From a virus, in the IMG/VR virus record IMGVR_UViG_3300017989_000443, positions 1 to 23,751 of that record: a stretch of 23,751 bases of DNA. One strand, 5' to 3'. Under the pieces are notes generated by a model, which worked only from the letters and a program-made list of their open reading frames with translations, did no database searches and was not told the DNA's origin. The position numbers were made by a program, and so were the translations under genes. Position 1 is the first letter of the stretch, and each line of letters starts with the position of its first letter. Shown piece after piece: positions 775 through 21,080 of the stretch.

Positions 775-969
775 ATGCCCGAACCCACCGTCATCCAATG
801 CGAATACGGCGAAGTGCCGCAAGGCACATACGCACTCATTCCCAGAATAGACCTGCAAACCGCCGTCAAGCGCTTTCAGAACTGGCAGCGCACCAAAAAC
901 GCGCCCTTGCCGCAAACCGTCTATCAAACCAAACTCGGCTTCTACTTCCCCCTGGAGGAACAAGAATGA
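775..969 (+). CDS. hypothetical phage protein, 64 residues
   Basis: The ATG at 775 is two bases after the DUF1064 stop, with GGAGAG at 762-767 as ribosome site. The product is soluble-looking with no Cys pairs or membrane segment. It begins MPEPTVIQCEYGEVPQGTY and ends with an acidic PLEEQE. Its TGA at 967-969 overlaps the next ATG (ATGA), which supports a real translated gene in the operon. I do not recognise a family. Confidence 0.65.
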   Translation: MPEPTVIQCEYGEVPQGTYALIPRIDLQTAVKRFQNWQRTKNAPLPQTVYQTKLGFYFPLEEQE

Positions 970-1094
970 CCTGGATCGTCATCGCATCAATCATCTTTTT
1001 CGGTATCTGCACCTGCCTGCTCGCCATCGCCCTGTGCAAAGCCGCCGCAAGCGCAGATCGTCACATCCGGGAAGCGCTCGGAGAAGACGAATAA
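966..1094 (+). CDS. small single-pass membrane peptide, 42 residues
   Basis: Translation starts at ATG 966, overlapping the previous stop, with GGAGGA at 955-960 giving good spacing. Residues 2-25 are a continuous hydrophobic segment (WIVIASIIFFGICTCLLAIALC) followed by a basic then acidic tail. It should sit in the inner membrane with a short cytoplasmic C-terminus. Phage early regions often carry such peptides, and roles range from superinfection exclusion to host membrane modulation; nothing here decides between them. It is the last gene before the structured non-coding leader at 1095-1207. Confidence 0.55.
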   Translation: MTWIVIASIIFFGICTCLLAIALCKAAASADRHIREALGEDE

Positions 1095-1107
1095 TTATTG
1101 TCCGCCC

Positions 1108-1187
1108 GCTCCCTGCCCCGGCGAAAGCCGAAGGCGGAAATCTACCCAAAGGAGAAGGGCCTAAACCTGCATCGTGGGGCAGGGAGC
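1108..1187 (+). promoter_or_regulatory. candidate structured RNA leader with 12-bp closing stem
   Basis: In the 113-base gap between stop 1094 and ATG 1208, bases 1108-1119 (GCTCCCTGCCCC) are the exact reverse complement of 1176-1187 (GGGGCAGGGAGC). Just inside the 5' arm lies CGGC-GAAA-GCCG (1119-1130), a 4-bp stem with a GNRA tetraloop. An AGGC at about 1131-1135 can pair with GCCT at 1159-1163. The closing stem ends 20 bases before the next start, and GAGG at about 1200-1203 serves as ribosome site. An ATTTT run follows the 3' arm. This could be a cis-regulatory leader, a processed small RNA or a structured spacer. It does not match any riboswitch or ribozyme consensus that I can recall with confidence. 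Confidence 0.45.
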
Positions 1188-1207
1188 ATTTTAGAAAGCG
1201 AGGAATT

Positions 1208-1459
1208 ATGAAACATTGCGTAAATTGCGGTACATCGCTCGAAGGATACAACAACCGGGCAAAGTATTGCCGTGCTCAGGAATGCCAGCGGGCACGCTAC
1301 CGCAAGAATAAAGAAAACTGGGTAAAAGATAACCCCGAACACTGGAAGAAGATGCAAAGGCGGTATAACGCAAAGTATCACCGCCTGCACCGTGCGCCCC
1401 GTTTGCGCATCGTCATCGATGAAAACCGCTGCTTGCCCATCAGGAGATCTCATGCGTAA
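1208..1459 (+). CDS. zinc-ribbon protein with basic helical tail
   Basis: I chose ATG 1208 because it follows GAGG and begins the recognisable fold: MKHCVNCGTSLEGYNNRAKY, then C-x4-C (CRAQEC). The four cysteines make a treble-clef or zinc-ribbon knuckle of the kind often seen in small phage proteins and at the N-termini of some HNH proteins. The remainder (QRARYRKNKENW, KKMQRRYNAKYHR) is strongly basic and predicted helical, suggesting nucleic-acid contact. Reading further upstream in frame would cross the structured leader and is unlikely. The length is 83 residues and the stop overlaps the next gene by eight bases. Function is unknown. Confidence 0.7.
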   Translation: MKHCVNCGTSLEGYNNRAKYCRAQECQRARYRKNKENWVKDNPEHWKKMQRRYNAKYHRLHRAPRLRIVIDENRCLPIRRSHA

Positions 1460-1676
1460 ACCAAACCCCAACAATCCCCGCCCCGCTGAAATCCTCCAAT
1501 TCATCACAGACTACCGCCGCTTGAAAGGCTTTGCCCCGTCCATCCGTGAAATGGCAGAGCATCTCAACACAAGCACGTCACTCGTTGACTATTATCTCAG
1601 GCGGCTCGAAAATCAAGGCCGCATCCGCCGTGATCCTGGAATAGCCAGGTCAATCGTCATCCTGGAAGGAGCGTAA
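1452..1676 (+). CDS. LexA-type winged-helix DNA-binding protein without protease domain
   Basis: AGGAG at 1443-1447 precedes ATG 1452. The 74-residue product is almost entirely a LexA N-terminal domain: EILQFITDYRRLKGFAPSIR, then EMAEHLNTSTSLVDYYLRRL and the wing ENQGRIRRDPGIARSI. In LexA this fold binds operator half-sites. The C-terminal S24 autoprotease and dimerisation domain is absent, so the protein cannot self-cleave in response to RecA. It could occupy host or phage SOS-box-like operators as a constitutive binder, or need a partner to dimerise. Domain identification is strong; regulatory target is unknown. Confidence 0.82.
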   Translation: MRKPNPNNPRPAEILQFITDYRRLKGFAPSIREMAEHLNTSTSLVDYYLRRLENQGRIRRDPGIARSIVILEGA

Positions 1677-3355: not shown

Positions 3356-3548
3356 CCTCACAGAAAGCGAACTGGCCATCCTGCAAATGCTGGTTTGCGG
3401 GCAGGCTTATAAATCCATCGCCTACCAGCGCGGCGTCAATCTGCGCACCGTGTACGCGCACATGGCAAACGTGCGCTCAAAGCTCGGTGCGCATTCCAAC
3501 GCTCAAGCCGTTGCCATCGCCGTGCATCTTCGCCTTGTCAGGGTATAA
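3327..3548 (+). CDS. LuxR-type (GerE) helix-turn-helix protein, first of a tandem pair
   Basis: From ATG 3327 the 73 residues form almost only a GerE domain: LTESELAILQMLVCGQAYKS, IAYQRGVNLRTVYAHMANVR and SKLGAHSNAQAVAIAVHL. The family consensus pieces are an acidic residue after L-T, G-x-x-x-K-x-I-A, the TV-x-x-H recognition helix and K-L-G. There is no receiver, autoinducer-binding or sigma-like domain. Stand-alone GerE proteins usually act as DNA-bound transcription regulators. Placed at the distal end of the early operon facing the late genes, it could be an activator of late transcription, which is inference. No strong ribosome site is visible (GGGAACG only). Confidence 0.78.
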   Translation: MPEKQNCRHNLTESELAILQMLVCGQAYKSIAYQRGVNLRTVYAHMANVRSKLGAHSNAQAVAIAVHLRLVRV

Positions 3549-3550
3549 CC

Positions 3551-3775
3551 ATGCTATCGAAAAGAGAAAAAACAATCCTCACCTGGATCGCTTGCGGATA
3601 TTCTTACAAATCGATCGCCGCCGCCCTCAACATTCACTACAAAACCGTCACCATCCACATGAAAAACATCCGCAAAAAACTAGCCTGCACCAATGCGCAG
3701 GCTGAAGAATACGCCATAAGAACCGGGTTGCTCGATCCTCGCAATTTGAAGCCGCCTTATCCTGCGCCGCCGTAG
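3551..3775 (+). CDS. LuxR-type (GerE) helix-turn-helix protein, second of a tandem pair
   Basis: This gene starts two bases after its neighbour's stop and encodes 74 residues: LSKREKTILTWIACGYSYKS, IAAALNIHYKTVTIHMKNIR, KKLACTNAQAEEYAIRTGLL. The YKSIA, TV-x-x-HM-x-N-x-R and KL-x-x-x-x-NAQA positions are shared with the upstream protein, so the pair are probably paralogues from a local duplication. The recognition-helix residues differ (NLRTVYAHM versus HYKTVTIHM), suggesting different DNA targets or a heterodimer. The proline-rich tail (LKPPYPAPP) is unusual. It is the last plus-strand gene, and its stop lies three bases from the end of the convergent late operon. Confidence 0.8.
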   Translation: MLSKREKTILTWIACGYSYKSIAAALNIHYKTVTIHMKNIRKKLACTNAQAEEYAIRTGLLDPRNLKPPYPAPP

Positions 3776-3778
3776 CGC

Positions 3779-4078
3779 CTATTCCGCCGTAATCAGCGCA
3801 TACGAGCTGATCGTATTGCCCTCAATCACCGCCGCACAGGTCAGGCGGTAGGTTTTCCCCGCCGTCAGGCCGTAAACAATCGGAGTAGTCACCTCATCAT
3901 CGGTCACGCTTGCGCTCCCGTCCAGGGTATCATCACTCACATCCACCCCGCCGGAAACATCATAAACCGTCACCTCCGGGCTTGCCGGCGTGCCAATCGC
4001 CGCAAAGTCGAACACATACGCAATCCGCTCATCAGAGCCTTGCGTCAACGGGCTTTCAATCGCTTCTCTAACGCTCAT
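3779..4078 (-). CDS. small fibre-region structural protein, Ig/FN3-like
   Basis: The 99-residue product starts MSVREAIESPLTQGSDERIA and contains alternating beta-strand sequence ending YGLTAGKTYRLTCAAVIEGN. The G-L-T-A-G-K-T-Y-R-L motif resembles the F/G strand region of fibronectin- or Ig-like phage modules. Small proteins of this type are frequently encoded beside tail or head fibre genes. Its ATG overlaps the stop of the 837-residue fibre (ATGA), so it is the last gene of the late operon and likely an accessory of that fibre. The family cannot be named with certainty. Confidence 0.65.
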   Translation of the reverse strand: MSVREAIESPLTQGSDERIAYVFDFAAIGTPASPEVTVYDVSGGVDVSDDTLDGSASVTDDEVTTPIVYGLTAGKTYRLTCAAVIEGNTISSYALITAE

Positions 4079-6588
4079 CTGTCCTCCACGGTCAAATCAA
4101 ATCCTCGCTGTGCCGCCGCCAGGGTCAAATCGCGCTCCTCAACGGTCAGCCCCAAACTGCGCCGTAGCGCCGTCAGCACCAGGCTGCGCTCCTCAGCGGT
4201 CAAAGCAAATCCCCTGGATAACGCCGTCAGCAGCACAATCCCGTCAAACAGGTACACCGCTACATCGTCAAGGCTGGTTGCGCTCTGCAGGCTGGCAACC
4301 ACCAGGCTGTGCACCATCGCCACCGCAGCATTGTCGATCTCGCTCGCACTGCTCAGCCCGGATACTGCCAGCGTATGCAGCAGGGTCGTACTCACATTGT
4401 CCAGCCCCGTCGCGCTCTGCAACCCGGCCACAATCAGGCTGTGCACCAGGTCAACCGCCGCACTCTCCAAAGCAGCCGCACTGCTCAAATCCGCAACCGT
4501 CAGGCTGTGGATCAACGTCGCCGCTGCTGTATCCAGGCTGGCGCCGCTCAGCAGCCCGGCCACAACAAGGTTATGAACCGTCCCAAAACTGATATTGTCA
4601 ATCCCCGCTGCGCTCAGCAGATCATCCACCGCCAGGGTATGCAGCAGGGTTGCCGTCACGTTATCAAGGCTCGCTCCGCTGGCTATCTCGCTTACCACTA
4701 AACTGTGAAGCAAAGTCGCAGCGACATTGTCCAGGTTTGCGCCGCTCTCCAACCCGGCAATCACCAGGCTGTGAAGGAGCGTAGTTACTGCATTTTCCAC
4801 CGCTGATGCACTGGCCGCGTCTGCCACACTCAGCGAATGCACCAACCCGGCGGTCACCTGCTCCAAAGTTGCGCCGCTGGTCAGCCCGGCTACAATCAGG
4901 CTGTGCACCAAACCGGCGGTCACATTATCCAGCGAAGAGGCGCTGCTCGCATCTTGCGCCGCCAGCGTATGAAAATACGTCAGGCCCGGCGCTTCCAGGC
5001 TCGCCCCGCTTGCTACATCGCCAACCGCAAGCGTATGCACGTATCCCACAGAAGGAGCATCCAGGCTTACCGAACTGGCCGCATCTGCAACCGTCAAATC
5101 ATGCGTAGTGCTAGTCGTGTATTCCACCGCCAGTATCGGACGCTTAGCCGCTGTACCCGAATTAGCCGAATGGAAACGGATATATTCTGTCGTGGTCGGT
5201 GCTGAATTGTCTAAATCTTCCTGACTGATCAAACCGTAATAGGTAGTTCCGTCCGTGTCAACCCAGGCTGTATTCAGGTTTCCGCTGGTATACTGCGTTT
5301 CGTCCGCCATCCCGCTGGTGTTCCTGAATATGTTGTCGTCCAGGTCTGCGGCGAGCAACCCGTCCCAAACCGTTTCTCGGTTAGCAGACGTAACCGGATC
5401 GCTGGCGCTCCAATCATATTTCAGGATCACTACGTCAAAATCTTCATTGTTGTTTAATCCCTCAACGGTCAGCTTTAGGTTTACTTGCGTGACCGTGTAT
5501 CCGTCCAGCGATGACGTATCAAATTTCAGCACGCTCCGGTAGTTGTTGTATGACCCTGTATACCTCTGCCCGACATAGACGTTAGAGTATGTATCGGCAG
5601 AATTGGTACACGTATCCCTTGCGTCTGCATACGTTGCCGATGATCCGCTCCACAATACCGCATCGGCTGTGTCGCCAGTAATGTCGGTGCTTGGGTCAAA
5701 CACAATCCCACCAGCAGGCATAGCCGCCAATTCGGGCACTCGTGCGCCCACCAACAGATAACAATTACCGTCATTGTCTTTCCAGATACGTTTGCGCAGC
5801 CGAATACTAACAGTCGGGTCGCTCTCGCTGTACGCATAATCCACCGGCAAAAAAGCCAGCAGCGCATCGGTCGCTGTGCGTAATTCGATCCCGCCGTCGC
5901 TGTCGTCAAAATCGCCGTCAATGTTTTGCAGGATCCCGTTCTTTATCCATTTCGGCACATCCGCCACATCAAGCTGGAACACAAAGCCGAAATACGTCTC
6001 AGCAGGTACGGTCGCTGGCGGTCTGTTTGCCGTTATCCAGTTTCGGGTTGTCTCACTCAGGACAACCTCCTCTTTGATCCCCCTGCCCTCAATGCGCCAG
6101 CGCACGTCTACGCCGCTCCACACATTCGCCCACGTTGCCCGAGCCTGTAACGCCTGGACGCTGCCGTCCTCATGCACGAACGGTATCGTTTCCTGCGAGA
6201 GATTTGCCCGGTTATACGTTGGTGCGCCGCCCACATCCTGCCAGGATCGTGTCGGGTAATGCAAATAACCCACACGTGCCAACCTGAACTTTAGCCAGTG
6301 TTGCCCCTTGCGCCCGCCAAAGCCTACCCAACCGTCTTGCTGCCCGTGACTTGCAATGTCCTTGCCGAGCGCATAATGCCAGCCCGCTGCCGTCACCCGC
6401 CAACCGTCAAATACGGCATTGTTCACCCGCACAGGTGACATGTTGACCTCAGCATCAAACGTGCCGCTGTCCTGCTCGCTTTCGTAATGCAAAACAGTTC
6501 CGCTGTGGATAAGGCTTTTCAGCCTGCCTCCATCGGCAAACGTCTTGGCGTGCCTTGACCGGCGCCCTACAACCTCAGACCAGGGCAT
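4075..6588 (-). CDS. large tail fibre/appendage protein with two C-terminal repeat arrays
   Basis: This 837-residue product begins MPWSEVVGRRSRHAKTF. Its start overlaps the upstream stop as TAATG. Residues 1-310 are a non-repetitive beta-rich region. Residues about 315-490 look like a DNRLRE-type beta-sandwich (YVGQRYTGSYNNYRSVLKFD, later KRPILAVEYT). Residues 496-781 are thirteen consecutive 22-residue repeats beginning H-(S/T)-L. Residues 787-837 are two and a half 18-residue repeats ending LTVEER or similar. No catalytic motif, signal peptide or Cys is apparent. The position at the end of the tail module suggests a receptor-binding or tail-tip fibre in which the repeats form a shaft; that is inference. 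The repeat-free N-terminus probably attaches to the tail. Confidence 0.75.
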   Translation of the reverse strand: MPWSEVVGRRSRHAKTFADGGRLKSLIHSGTVLHYESEQDSGTFDAEVNMSPVRVNNAVFDGWRVTAAGWHYALGKDIASHGQQDGWVGFGGRKGQHWLKFRLARVGYLHYPTRSWQDVGGAPTYNRANLSQETIPFVHEDGSVQALQARATWANVWSGVDVRWRIEGRGIKEEVVLSETTRNWITANRPPATVPAETYFGFVFQLDVADVPKWIKNGILQNIDGDFDDSDGGIELRTATDALLAFLPVDYAYSESDPTVSIRLRKRIWKDNDGNCYLLVGARVPELAAMPAGGIVFDPSTDITGDTADAVLWSGSSATYADARDTCTNSADTYSNVYVGQRYTGSYNNYRSVLKFDTSSLDGYTVTQVNLKLTVEGLNNNEDFDVVILKYDWSASDPVTSANRETVWDGLLAADLDDNIFRNTSGMADETQYTSGNLNTAWVDTDGTTYYGLISQEDLDNSAPTTTEYIRFHSANSGTAAKRPILAVEYTTSTTHDLTVADAASSVSLDAPSVGYVHTLAVGDVASGASLEAPGLTYFHTLAAQDASSASSLDNVTAGLVHSLIVAGLTSGATLEQVTAGLVHSLSVADAASASAVENAVTTLLHSLVIAGLESGANLDNVAATLLHSLVVSEIASGASLDNVTATLLHTLAVDDLLSAAGIDNISFGTVHNLVVAGLLSGASLDTAAATLIHSLTVADLSSAAALESAAVDLVHSLIVAGLQSATGLDNVSTTLLHTLAVSGLSSASEIDNAAVAMVHSLVVASLQSATSLDDVAVYLFDGIVLLTALSRGFALTAEERSLVLTALRRSLGLTVEERDLTLAAAQRGFDLTVEDR
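4078..4230 (-). repeat. 54-base coding repeats (18 residues) at fibre C-terminus
   Basis: The last 51 codons contain two full units and one truncated unit: LTALSRGFALTAEERSLV, LTALRRSLGLTVEERDLT and LAAAQRGFDLTVEDR. The pattern L-T-A-x-x-R-x-(F/L)-x-L-T-x-E-(E/D)-R is clear. The period (18) differs from the adjacent 22-residue array, so the protein changes repeat register at about residue 782. This may be a distal tip or a trimerisation module. Confidence 0.82.
4246..5103 (-). repeat. thirteen tandem 66-base coding repeats (22 residues each)
   Basis: Reading the minus strand from 5103 to 4246, I can align thirteen uninterrupted units of exactly 22 codons. The unit consensus is H-(S/T)-L-x-V-A-x-x-x-S-(G/A)-A-x-L-(D/E)-N-V-x-x-x-L-(L/V). 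Examples are HSLVVSEIASGASLDN and HSLIVAGLQSATGLDN. Two subtypes are seen, one with VAD(A/L) and one with VAGL, and they tend to alternate. The exact period and the invariant leading His favour a repeating structural fold such as a beta-solenoid or trimeric shaft. Copy number probably varies by recombination. Confidence 0.9.
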
Positions 6589-19766: not shown

Positions 19767-21080
19767 CTAACCAAAGAACGGATTTTCACTTACCTCAACC
19801 GGCCCGCCAGAGCCGAACACCAGGTCATTGATCGCCCAGACCAGCGCATCCACCCTGTCCGGGCTTTCCTCGCTGGCCGGGTTCCAGGTGGTCATCTGAC
19901 TTTCCAGCGCTCCAAATACGCCCACATGATGTACCTTGCCCTGCTCATACAGGCCAGCGACAGGCTCGGCGCGGGTTGCCTTGCCCCGGCTCGCACGCAC
20001 AGAGCGCACTCTGCCCGTAAACCCGGCGGCTCTCAGGTTCGCTTCCACCAGGTCGCCGCCGTTGTTCACCTCGGCAATCATCGCATCGGCTTCCAGCAGC
20101 TCATAATGCGTCATCGCCTTCTTTGCCCAGCCCAGCGGAGAGTAGATACCGCTCGCATCGCCCAGCACGTAGACGTGCTCATCTTCAGCGCCCAGCCCCG
20201 CAACGATAATGCCCGTTTCGTTGCTATCGGCATTCGATGAAACCGCCGGGTCAATCCCGATCACGATCCTGCGCAAAGCAGGCGCCTTCTTTTTCTTCCG
20301 GCGGTACTGCTCGATCAAAGCGCTTGTCCACAGAGCGCCTTCCACATCTTCCAAGATTTCAGCGAGCAGCTCCTGCCGCCCCAGCCGGGTTCCCTCGTAA
20401 CGTTGAATGACGTAATCGAAAAAGCCTTTTGCCAGGTTCGCCCGGTTTTCATACGTGGTGCCCCTGGTTATCACGTTGCTCTCATCGGCCACCAGCGCCT
20501 TCACCAGCTTGATCGGCTTTGGCGTAGTGGTCACAATCCCTTGCGGTTGCGCTCCCAGCCGTAAGCCCAGCATCGCCTGATTCCAGGCTTCTTCCGGGTA
20601 GCGCCAGGCCCCCACTTCATCTGCCCACAGCTTTTCATGCTGCTTACCCCGCAAGCGCTCCGGCTCATCGGCTGTGAAGATAAGGCTGATCGCTCCGTTA
20701 GGCCAGGATAACTTGCGGTCGCTCTTCTTGTACACCGGTCGCTCATTCGCCGGGCAAACGGCCAGAATACCGCTCTCGCCCTCGATCATAATGTCACGGG
20801 CATCATCCGCCGTTGCGCCAATCAGGTTCACCAGGCGAAAGGAGCGTACCCACATGCGCACCTGCTCAGCGCCGGTACGGGTCTTGCCGAAGCCGCGCCC
20901 CGCCAGGATCACCCAGTTGAACCAGTCGCCCGCCGGCGTTTGCTGTTTCTCGCGCGCCCAGAACTGCCAGTCGTATTGAAGATGGTAAAGTTCAGTCTTC
21001 GTCAGGCTGCTCAGAAACTGCGTCCGCTGCTCCGGCGGCTGCAATGCCAGCCAATTTGCGGAGTATGCTATCTCTGACAT
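19767..21080 (-). CDS. terL: terminase large subunit
   Basis: The 437-residue protein has all key parts. Residues 58-70 contain the Walker A motif ILAGRGFGKTRTG, residues 151-155 the Walker B LWADE with catalytic Glu 155, and TTTPKP at 185-190 the coupling motif. The nuclease part opens with IGIDPA near 274-279 (Asp 277) and has later acidic residues in AEVNNGGD and DRVDALVWAI. It is the motor that cuts and packages DNA. ATG 21080 follows GAGGT; it overlaps the small subunit's end by 89 bases in a different frame. The packaging mode (cos or pac) cannot be decided from the sequence alone. Confidence 0.93.
   Translation of the reverse strand: MSEIAYSANWLALQPPEQRTQFLSSLTKTELYHLQYDWQFWAREKQQTPAGDWFNWVILAGRGFGKTRTGAEQVRMWVRSFRLVNLIGATADDARDIMIEGESGILAVCPANERPVYKKSDRKLSWPNGAISLIFTADEPERLRGKQHEKLWADEVGAWRYPEEAWNQAMLGLRLGAQPQGIVTTTPKPIKLVKALVADESNVITRGTTYENRANLAKGFFDYVIQRYEGTRLGRQELLAEILEDVEGALWTSALIEQYRRKKKKAPALRRIVIGIDPAVSSNADSNETGIIVAGLGAEDEHVYVLGDASGIYSPLGWAKKAMTHYELLEADAMIAEVNNGGDLVEANLRAAGFTGRVRSVRASRGKATRAEPVAGLYEQGKVHHVGVFGALESQMTTWNPASEESPDRVDALVWAINDLVFGSGGPVEVSENPFFG

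Follow-up and report, generated by a model that had tools for sequence, protein, structure and literature searches.

Intercistronic stem-loops involved in mRNA processing and stability are known from bacterial and phage operons, and they form no sequence family. Another kind of structured RNA is represented by the putRNAs of HK022, which are ~70 nt in length and consist of two successive stem-loops downstream of early promoters (PMC9378689).

The element described here lies in an early phage operon on a 23,751-base linear virus record of the IMG/VR type (hereafter, the window). With the intercistronic processing and stability stem-loops it has in common a strong, GC-rich helix, predicted to be stable, between cistrons of one operon, an AT-rich flank and a downstream gene with its own ribosome site; it differs from them in its large 56-nt loop, in that its processing is conjectural, and in that no relative was found. 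With the HK022 putRNAs it shares the setting in an early phage operon, a length of ~70-80 nt and a structured nature. In contrast to these, it consists of a single enclosing helix inside the operon rather than two stem-loops after an early promoter, with no promoter-like site in 900-1500. In its mode of action, the element would resemble an intercistronic mRNA hairpin, and it belongs to no testable sequence family.

An overlong junction in a compact early operon

The source virus is a tailed phage, as its SPP1-type portal, P22-like coat protein and terminase indicate. Its very small early genes form a rightward operon at 1-3.8 kb, and leftward late genes occupy most of the remainder of the window. 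The features in and around the gap at 1095-1207 are the following:

966-1094, plus strand: upstream gene, an open reading frame for a 42-aa putative membrane peptide with a strong SD (GGAGGA) and a TAA stop at 1092-1094
1098-1211, plus strand: competing feature, a 37-aa open frame with a TTG start, LSARSLPRRKPKAEIYPKEKGLNLHRGAGSILESEEL; its TGA (1209-1211) overlaps the next ATG as ATGA
1108-1119, plus strand: 5′ arm of the 12-bp closing helix P1, GCTCCCTGCCCC, one half of an exact inverted repeat
1120-1129, plus strand: possible P2 hairpin GGC-GAAA-GCC, ~0.23 of the ensemble by base-pair probabilities
1132-1162, plus strand: possible P3 in the minimum-energy fold, AGGC (1132-1135) with GCCT (1159-1162), and an inner TCT-A-CC/GG-AGA hairpin (1141-1155)
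1163-1175, plus strand: 13-nt strand between P3 and P1, AAACCTGCATCGT, part of which pairs in an alternative P1 extension in predicted folds
1176-1187, plus strand: 3′ arm of P1, GGGGCAGGGAGC, the other half of the exact inverted repeat
1188-1199, plus strand: AT-rich single-stranded flank, ATTTTAGAAAGC, 75% AT, a candidate endonuclease site
1208-1459, plus strand: downstream gene for an 83-aa zinc-ribbon protein, with its ATG at 1208 and an SD (CGAGGA) 3 nt upstream
1452-1676, plus strand: next gene, for a LexA-type winged-helix DNA-binding protein (Pfam PF01726, E 5e-13)

At all other tabulated early junctions, the spacing lies between −11 and +2 nt and is mostly −4, so that the 113-nt gap, the only one above +2 nt, is indeed as exceptional for a compact operon as the original prediction had proposed. 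Like most genes around it, the zinc-ribbon gene has an SD of its own; most neighbours also start with ATG at a normal distance from their SD. Against PHROGs, the zinc-ribbon protein matched phrog_1271 (E 0.005). In an alignment with Variovorax phage V45v66, it is similar to the zinc-binding N-terminal part of phage HNH endonucleases and lacks the HNH domain itself.

Several further observations concern the gene content of the window. The early operon encodes several hydrophobic peptides of 28-42 aa, and what appears to be a 172-nt gap 3′ of the gene for the LexA-like protein is occupied by two overlapping frames for tiny membrane peptides (1678-1764, 28 aa; 1754-1852, 32 aa) that have SD-like sequences. 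The early operon closes with two consecutive small frames (3360-3775) resembling related helix-turn-helix proteins of the LuxR type (GerE); PF00196 is matched by the second of them (3551-3775) with E 1.7e-16, and the pair faces the late operon tail to tail. On the minus strand (4075-5000), short repeats of the type LLHSLVVAGLxSGASLDNVAAT form an array at the C terminus of an 837-aa late protein.

The predicted closing helix and its interior

The two arms at 1108-1119 and 1176-1187, originally described as exact reverse complements, are so, and are separated by 56 nt. The 5′ arm starts 13 nt past the stop codon of the upstream membrane-peptide gene, and the 3′ arm ends 20 nt before the zinc-ribbon ATG, a distance that had been given correctly as well. 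Within the window, this is the sole perfect inverted repeat with arms of at least 12 nt and a loop of at most 100 nt. Dinucleotide shuffling of the whole window yielded at least one repeat of this class in 13.5% of cases (mean 0.15; about one window in seven), as compared to 0.04% when the gap alone was shuffled. The window-wide rate would suit a chance repeat in a non-functional spacer; the rate within the gap argues against it, as does the rest of the operon, to which an unused 113-nt spacer would be foreign, and we regard this explanation as very unlikely.

Computed folding energies point to a stable structure, with −27.9 kcal/mol for the P1 duplex and −39.8 kcal/mol for the 80-nt element (1108-1187) versus −27.4 +/- 3.2 kcal/mol in shuffles (z −3.9), while the whole gap with its flanks reached a z of only −1.5 to −1.6. 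In three sequence contexts, the P1 arms were predicted to pair with one another at a mean probability of 0.88-1.0. According to these models, the 12-bp helix forms in the predicted transcript and is unlikely to have arisen by chance within the gap.

The excess stability of the element stems from the closing helix and not from its interior: folded on its own, the 56-nt interior (1120-1175) gave a z of −0.1, that is, no stability beyond that of shuffles, and hence none of the interior structure beyond chance that would mark a riboswitch or ribozyme. Inside the helix, a CGGC-GAAA-GCCG hairpin had been proposed. Such a hairpin is possible (~0.23 of the ensemble) in competition with an extension of P1 (~0.76), and just three of its pairs are compatible with a closed P1, since C1119 is shared and the fourth pair, C1119-G1130, is therefore blocked. 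A 4-bp GNRA hairpin arises in 1.1% of interior shuffles, a figure that applies to a motif picked only after being seen. The second proposed pairing, AGGC/GCCT, is present in the minimum-energy fold at a stability no greater than that of shuffles. Because the interior has a z of −0.1 and the GAAA hairpin competes with the P1 extension, only one helix is convincing in the models, any finer architecture being tentative.

Folding had also been suggested to gate translation of the zinc-ribbon gene. Sequestration is not favoured by our predictions, in which the P1 arms pair with each other and not with the zinc-ribbon SD, the helix does not cover the ribosome site, and the SD is partly open. On the plus strand, no sigma-70-like promoter was found in 900-1500, nor was any sequence in this interval like an intrinsic terminator, in which a U run follows a GC stem with a short loop; the loop of the element itself is 56 nt. 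An Rfam 15 search returned no family at or above its gathering cut-off in the window, and nothing up to E 10 for the gap on the plus strand; the element thus matches no nameable family, as originally stated.

These results bear on two further explanations. In a regulatory leader, the helix would present its loop to a protein (for example, the zinc-ribbon product) or to a ligand, and control the zinc-ribbon and LexA-like genes. That the element closely precedes a small zinc-ribbon gene and the gene of a LexA-like regulator is, together with the possible GNRA hairpin, consistent with such a role; an interior that folds like its shuffles, the empty Rfam result, a helix unpaired with the SD and the lack of a second copy in the window make it improbable. 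Of the structured RNA leader originally called, what stands on thermodynamic grounds is a strong single helix in an overlong intercistronic gap; an elaborate leader is not borne out, with an interior equal to shuffles and neither homologue nor covariation found. Alternatively, the nascent RNA might, like a putRNA, enable RNA polymerase to resist terminators along the early operon. The operon, the ~70-80 nt length and the strong structure would agree with the ~70-nt putRNAs of HK022, but a putRNA has two successive stem-loops (PMC9378689) where here one helix encloses everything, and the element sits inside the operon with no recognisable promoter nearby. We therefore give this possibility very little weight.

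Coding potential of the gap

Whether the gap is non-coding, as the original prediction had it, is uncertain, since frame 0 is open and has coding-like codons, set against a weak TTG start and no homologue found. Read as a gene, the 37-aa frame would have junction spacings of +3 and −4, which fit the rest of an operon filled with other tiny ORFs (28, 32 and 42 aa). Its codon score of +0.080 lies above those of several accepted early genes of the window, and only 0.26% of shadow-frame windows free of stops, and 0.74% of gap shuffles, score at least as high. On the other hand, its start at TTG 1098 has an SD-like run (CGGAGAA) 12 nt upstream, whereas most neighbours have an ATG and a well-placed SD. 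The peptide matched nothing in PHROGs or Pfam, and nothing better than E 7 in GenBank phages. If the gap were this gene, coupled on both sides, the repeat would be coincidental or secondary; the 13.5% window-wide chance of a repeat would allow for that, its 0.04% rate in gap shuffles speaks against it, and we consider such a gene unlikely, if less so than the alternatives above. Chance is an improbable source of either signal, the helix or frame 0, and both may be real. As a signal in the gap, we weigh the helix above frame 0, as chance would produce it there less often.

An N-terminal extension of the zinc-ribbon protein through the gap in frame 2 was rejected (codon score −0.18, no usable start). 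The extension scored slightly better against its PHROG, but that family is promiscuous; in the Variovorax phage relative, a stop codon immediately precedes the matching start.

Relatives and proposed role of the element

Queries comprised the DNA of the gap, the proteins on either side of it, patterns from the interior and a covariance model made from this one sequence; they were run against IMG/VR, GenBank phages, PLSDB, several dozen related phage and host records, 1.23 Mb of relatives and 400 Chloroflexota genomes. Chloroflexota is a guessed host phylum, chosen solely on the basis of one Chloroflexi MAG that encodes a terminase of 61% identity as well as a relative of p267. Throughout these collections no homologue of the element was found, and only the window itself matched convincingly. 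In IMG/VR, an 18-base core pattern had four matches in unrelated contexts without the helix, three further interior patterns had none, and neither the zinc-ribbon nor the LexA-like protein had relatives there. The Chloroflexota genomes yielded two short DNA matches, rejected as both lay over long open frames, one spurious zinc-ribbon match, and one covariance match with E 0.007, chance alone being expected to give about four with E below 0.01. Relatives of DUF1064 and of the coat protein do exist, and the sequence examined from them was without the zinc ribbon, the gap or other early genes alongside. The late genes have relatives, including a coat protein of 100% identity encoded on a contig of 4.8 kb that stops short of the early region. 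This absence of homologues neither supports nor refutes the element.

The longest blastn match to the gap (45 nt, 78% identity including CCGGCGAAAGCC, E = 4) fell in a repeated leading-region element of Serratia conjugative plasmids. Like the gap, that element lies upstream of a same-strand gene; unlike it, it has the conserved blocks TACCCCGT and GGGGAATACACCAGAAAG, which are absent from the gap. Because of the E of 4 and the missing blocks, the match is most likely due to chance. The Serratia plasmid itself carries three near-identical copies of its element (96-98% to the query; 20001-20121, 29466-29554 and 35027-35115), each ~89 nt or more and upstream of leading-region genes, as well as diverged inverted copies ~130 nt away, an arrangement suggestive of a single-strand initiation or promoter element.

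A perfect inverted repeat next to a LexA-like HTH gene might instead act at the DNA level, as spaced operator halves or a recombination site, or be what is left of a small mobile element whose ends are inverted. The repeat is single-copy in the record and no copy occurred in the searched phages, plasmids and genomes, and we find this highly improbable.

The reading that we tentatively prefer is a cis-acting intercistronic mRNA hairpin that would uncouple the genes on either side and act as a barrier to processing or decay, allowing separate expression of the zinc-ribbon and LexA-like half. It is favoured because the helix does not pair with the SD, is not a terminator, has no promoter-like site nearby and is followed by an AT-rich 3′ flank. 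The exact repeat, its rarity in the gap, the z of −3.9 and the predicted P1 pairing all argue for it, as do the only early junction above +2 nt, the separate SDs of the zinc-ribbon gene and most neighbours, the AT-rich 3′ flank and the lack of promoter and terminator on the plus strand of 900-1500; an interior without excess structure is what a simple hairpin would have. Against it stand the lack of a homologue, the coding-like frame 0 and a window-wide chance of roughly one in seven for a repeat of this length.

Given general knowledge of ribosome footprints, the helix would sit between that of a ribosome finishing the upstream gene and that of one starting the downstream gene, and could therefore fold during translation of both, blocking neither. 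In this way, it would uncouple the membrane-peptide gene from the zinc-ribbon gene. Cuts of the RNase E type usually fall in AT-rich sites such as the 3′ flank; an endonuclease cutting in the AT-rich flanks would leave RNA protected by the helix, which would serve as a processing or decay barrier, and the zinc-ribbon/LexA-like half of the operon would be expressed at a level of its own. The flanks and the position of the predicted helix are directly visible; processing and uncoupling are what we infer.

Overall, the models describe a single-copy element with a stable predicted helix, an unusual gap, no relatives found and a putative function, whose job is most likely that of a passive spacer or processing hairpin between genes. 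It is quite improbable that it represents a novel class of phage cis-regulatory RNA in which helix and passing ribosome would jointly set expression of the zinc-ribbon gene and LexA-like regulator, possibly together with translation of the 37-aa frame as a leader peptide, its stop codon overlapping the start of the zinc-ribbon gene; in any case, evidence from a single genome cannot found a new RNA class. Should the 37-aa frame be translated, the call of a structured non-coding gap would be wrong. If processing or uncoupling holds true, the helix would show how one break point, inserted among early genes that overlap almost throughout, lets a phage set the level of a regulator apart.
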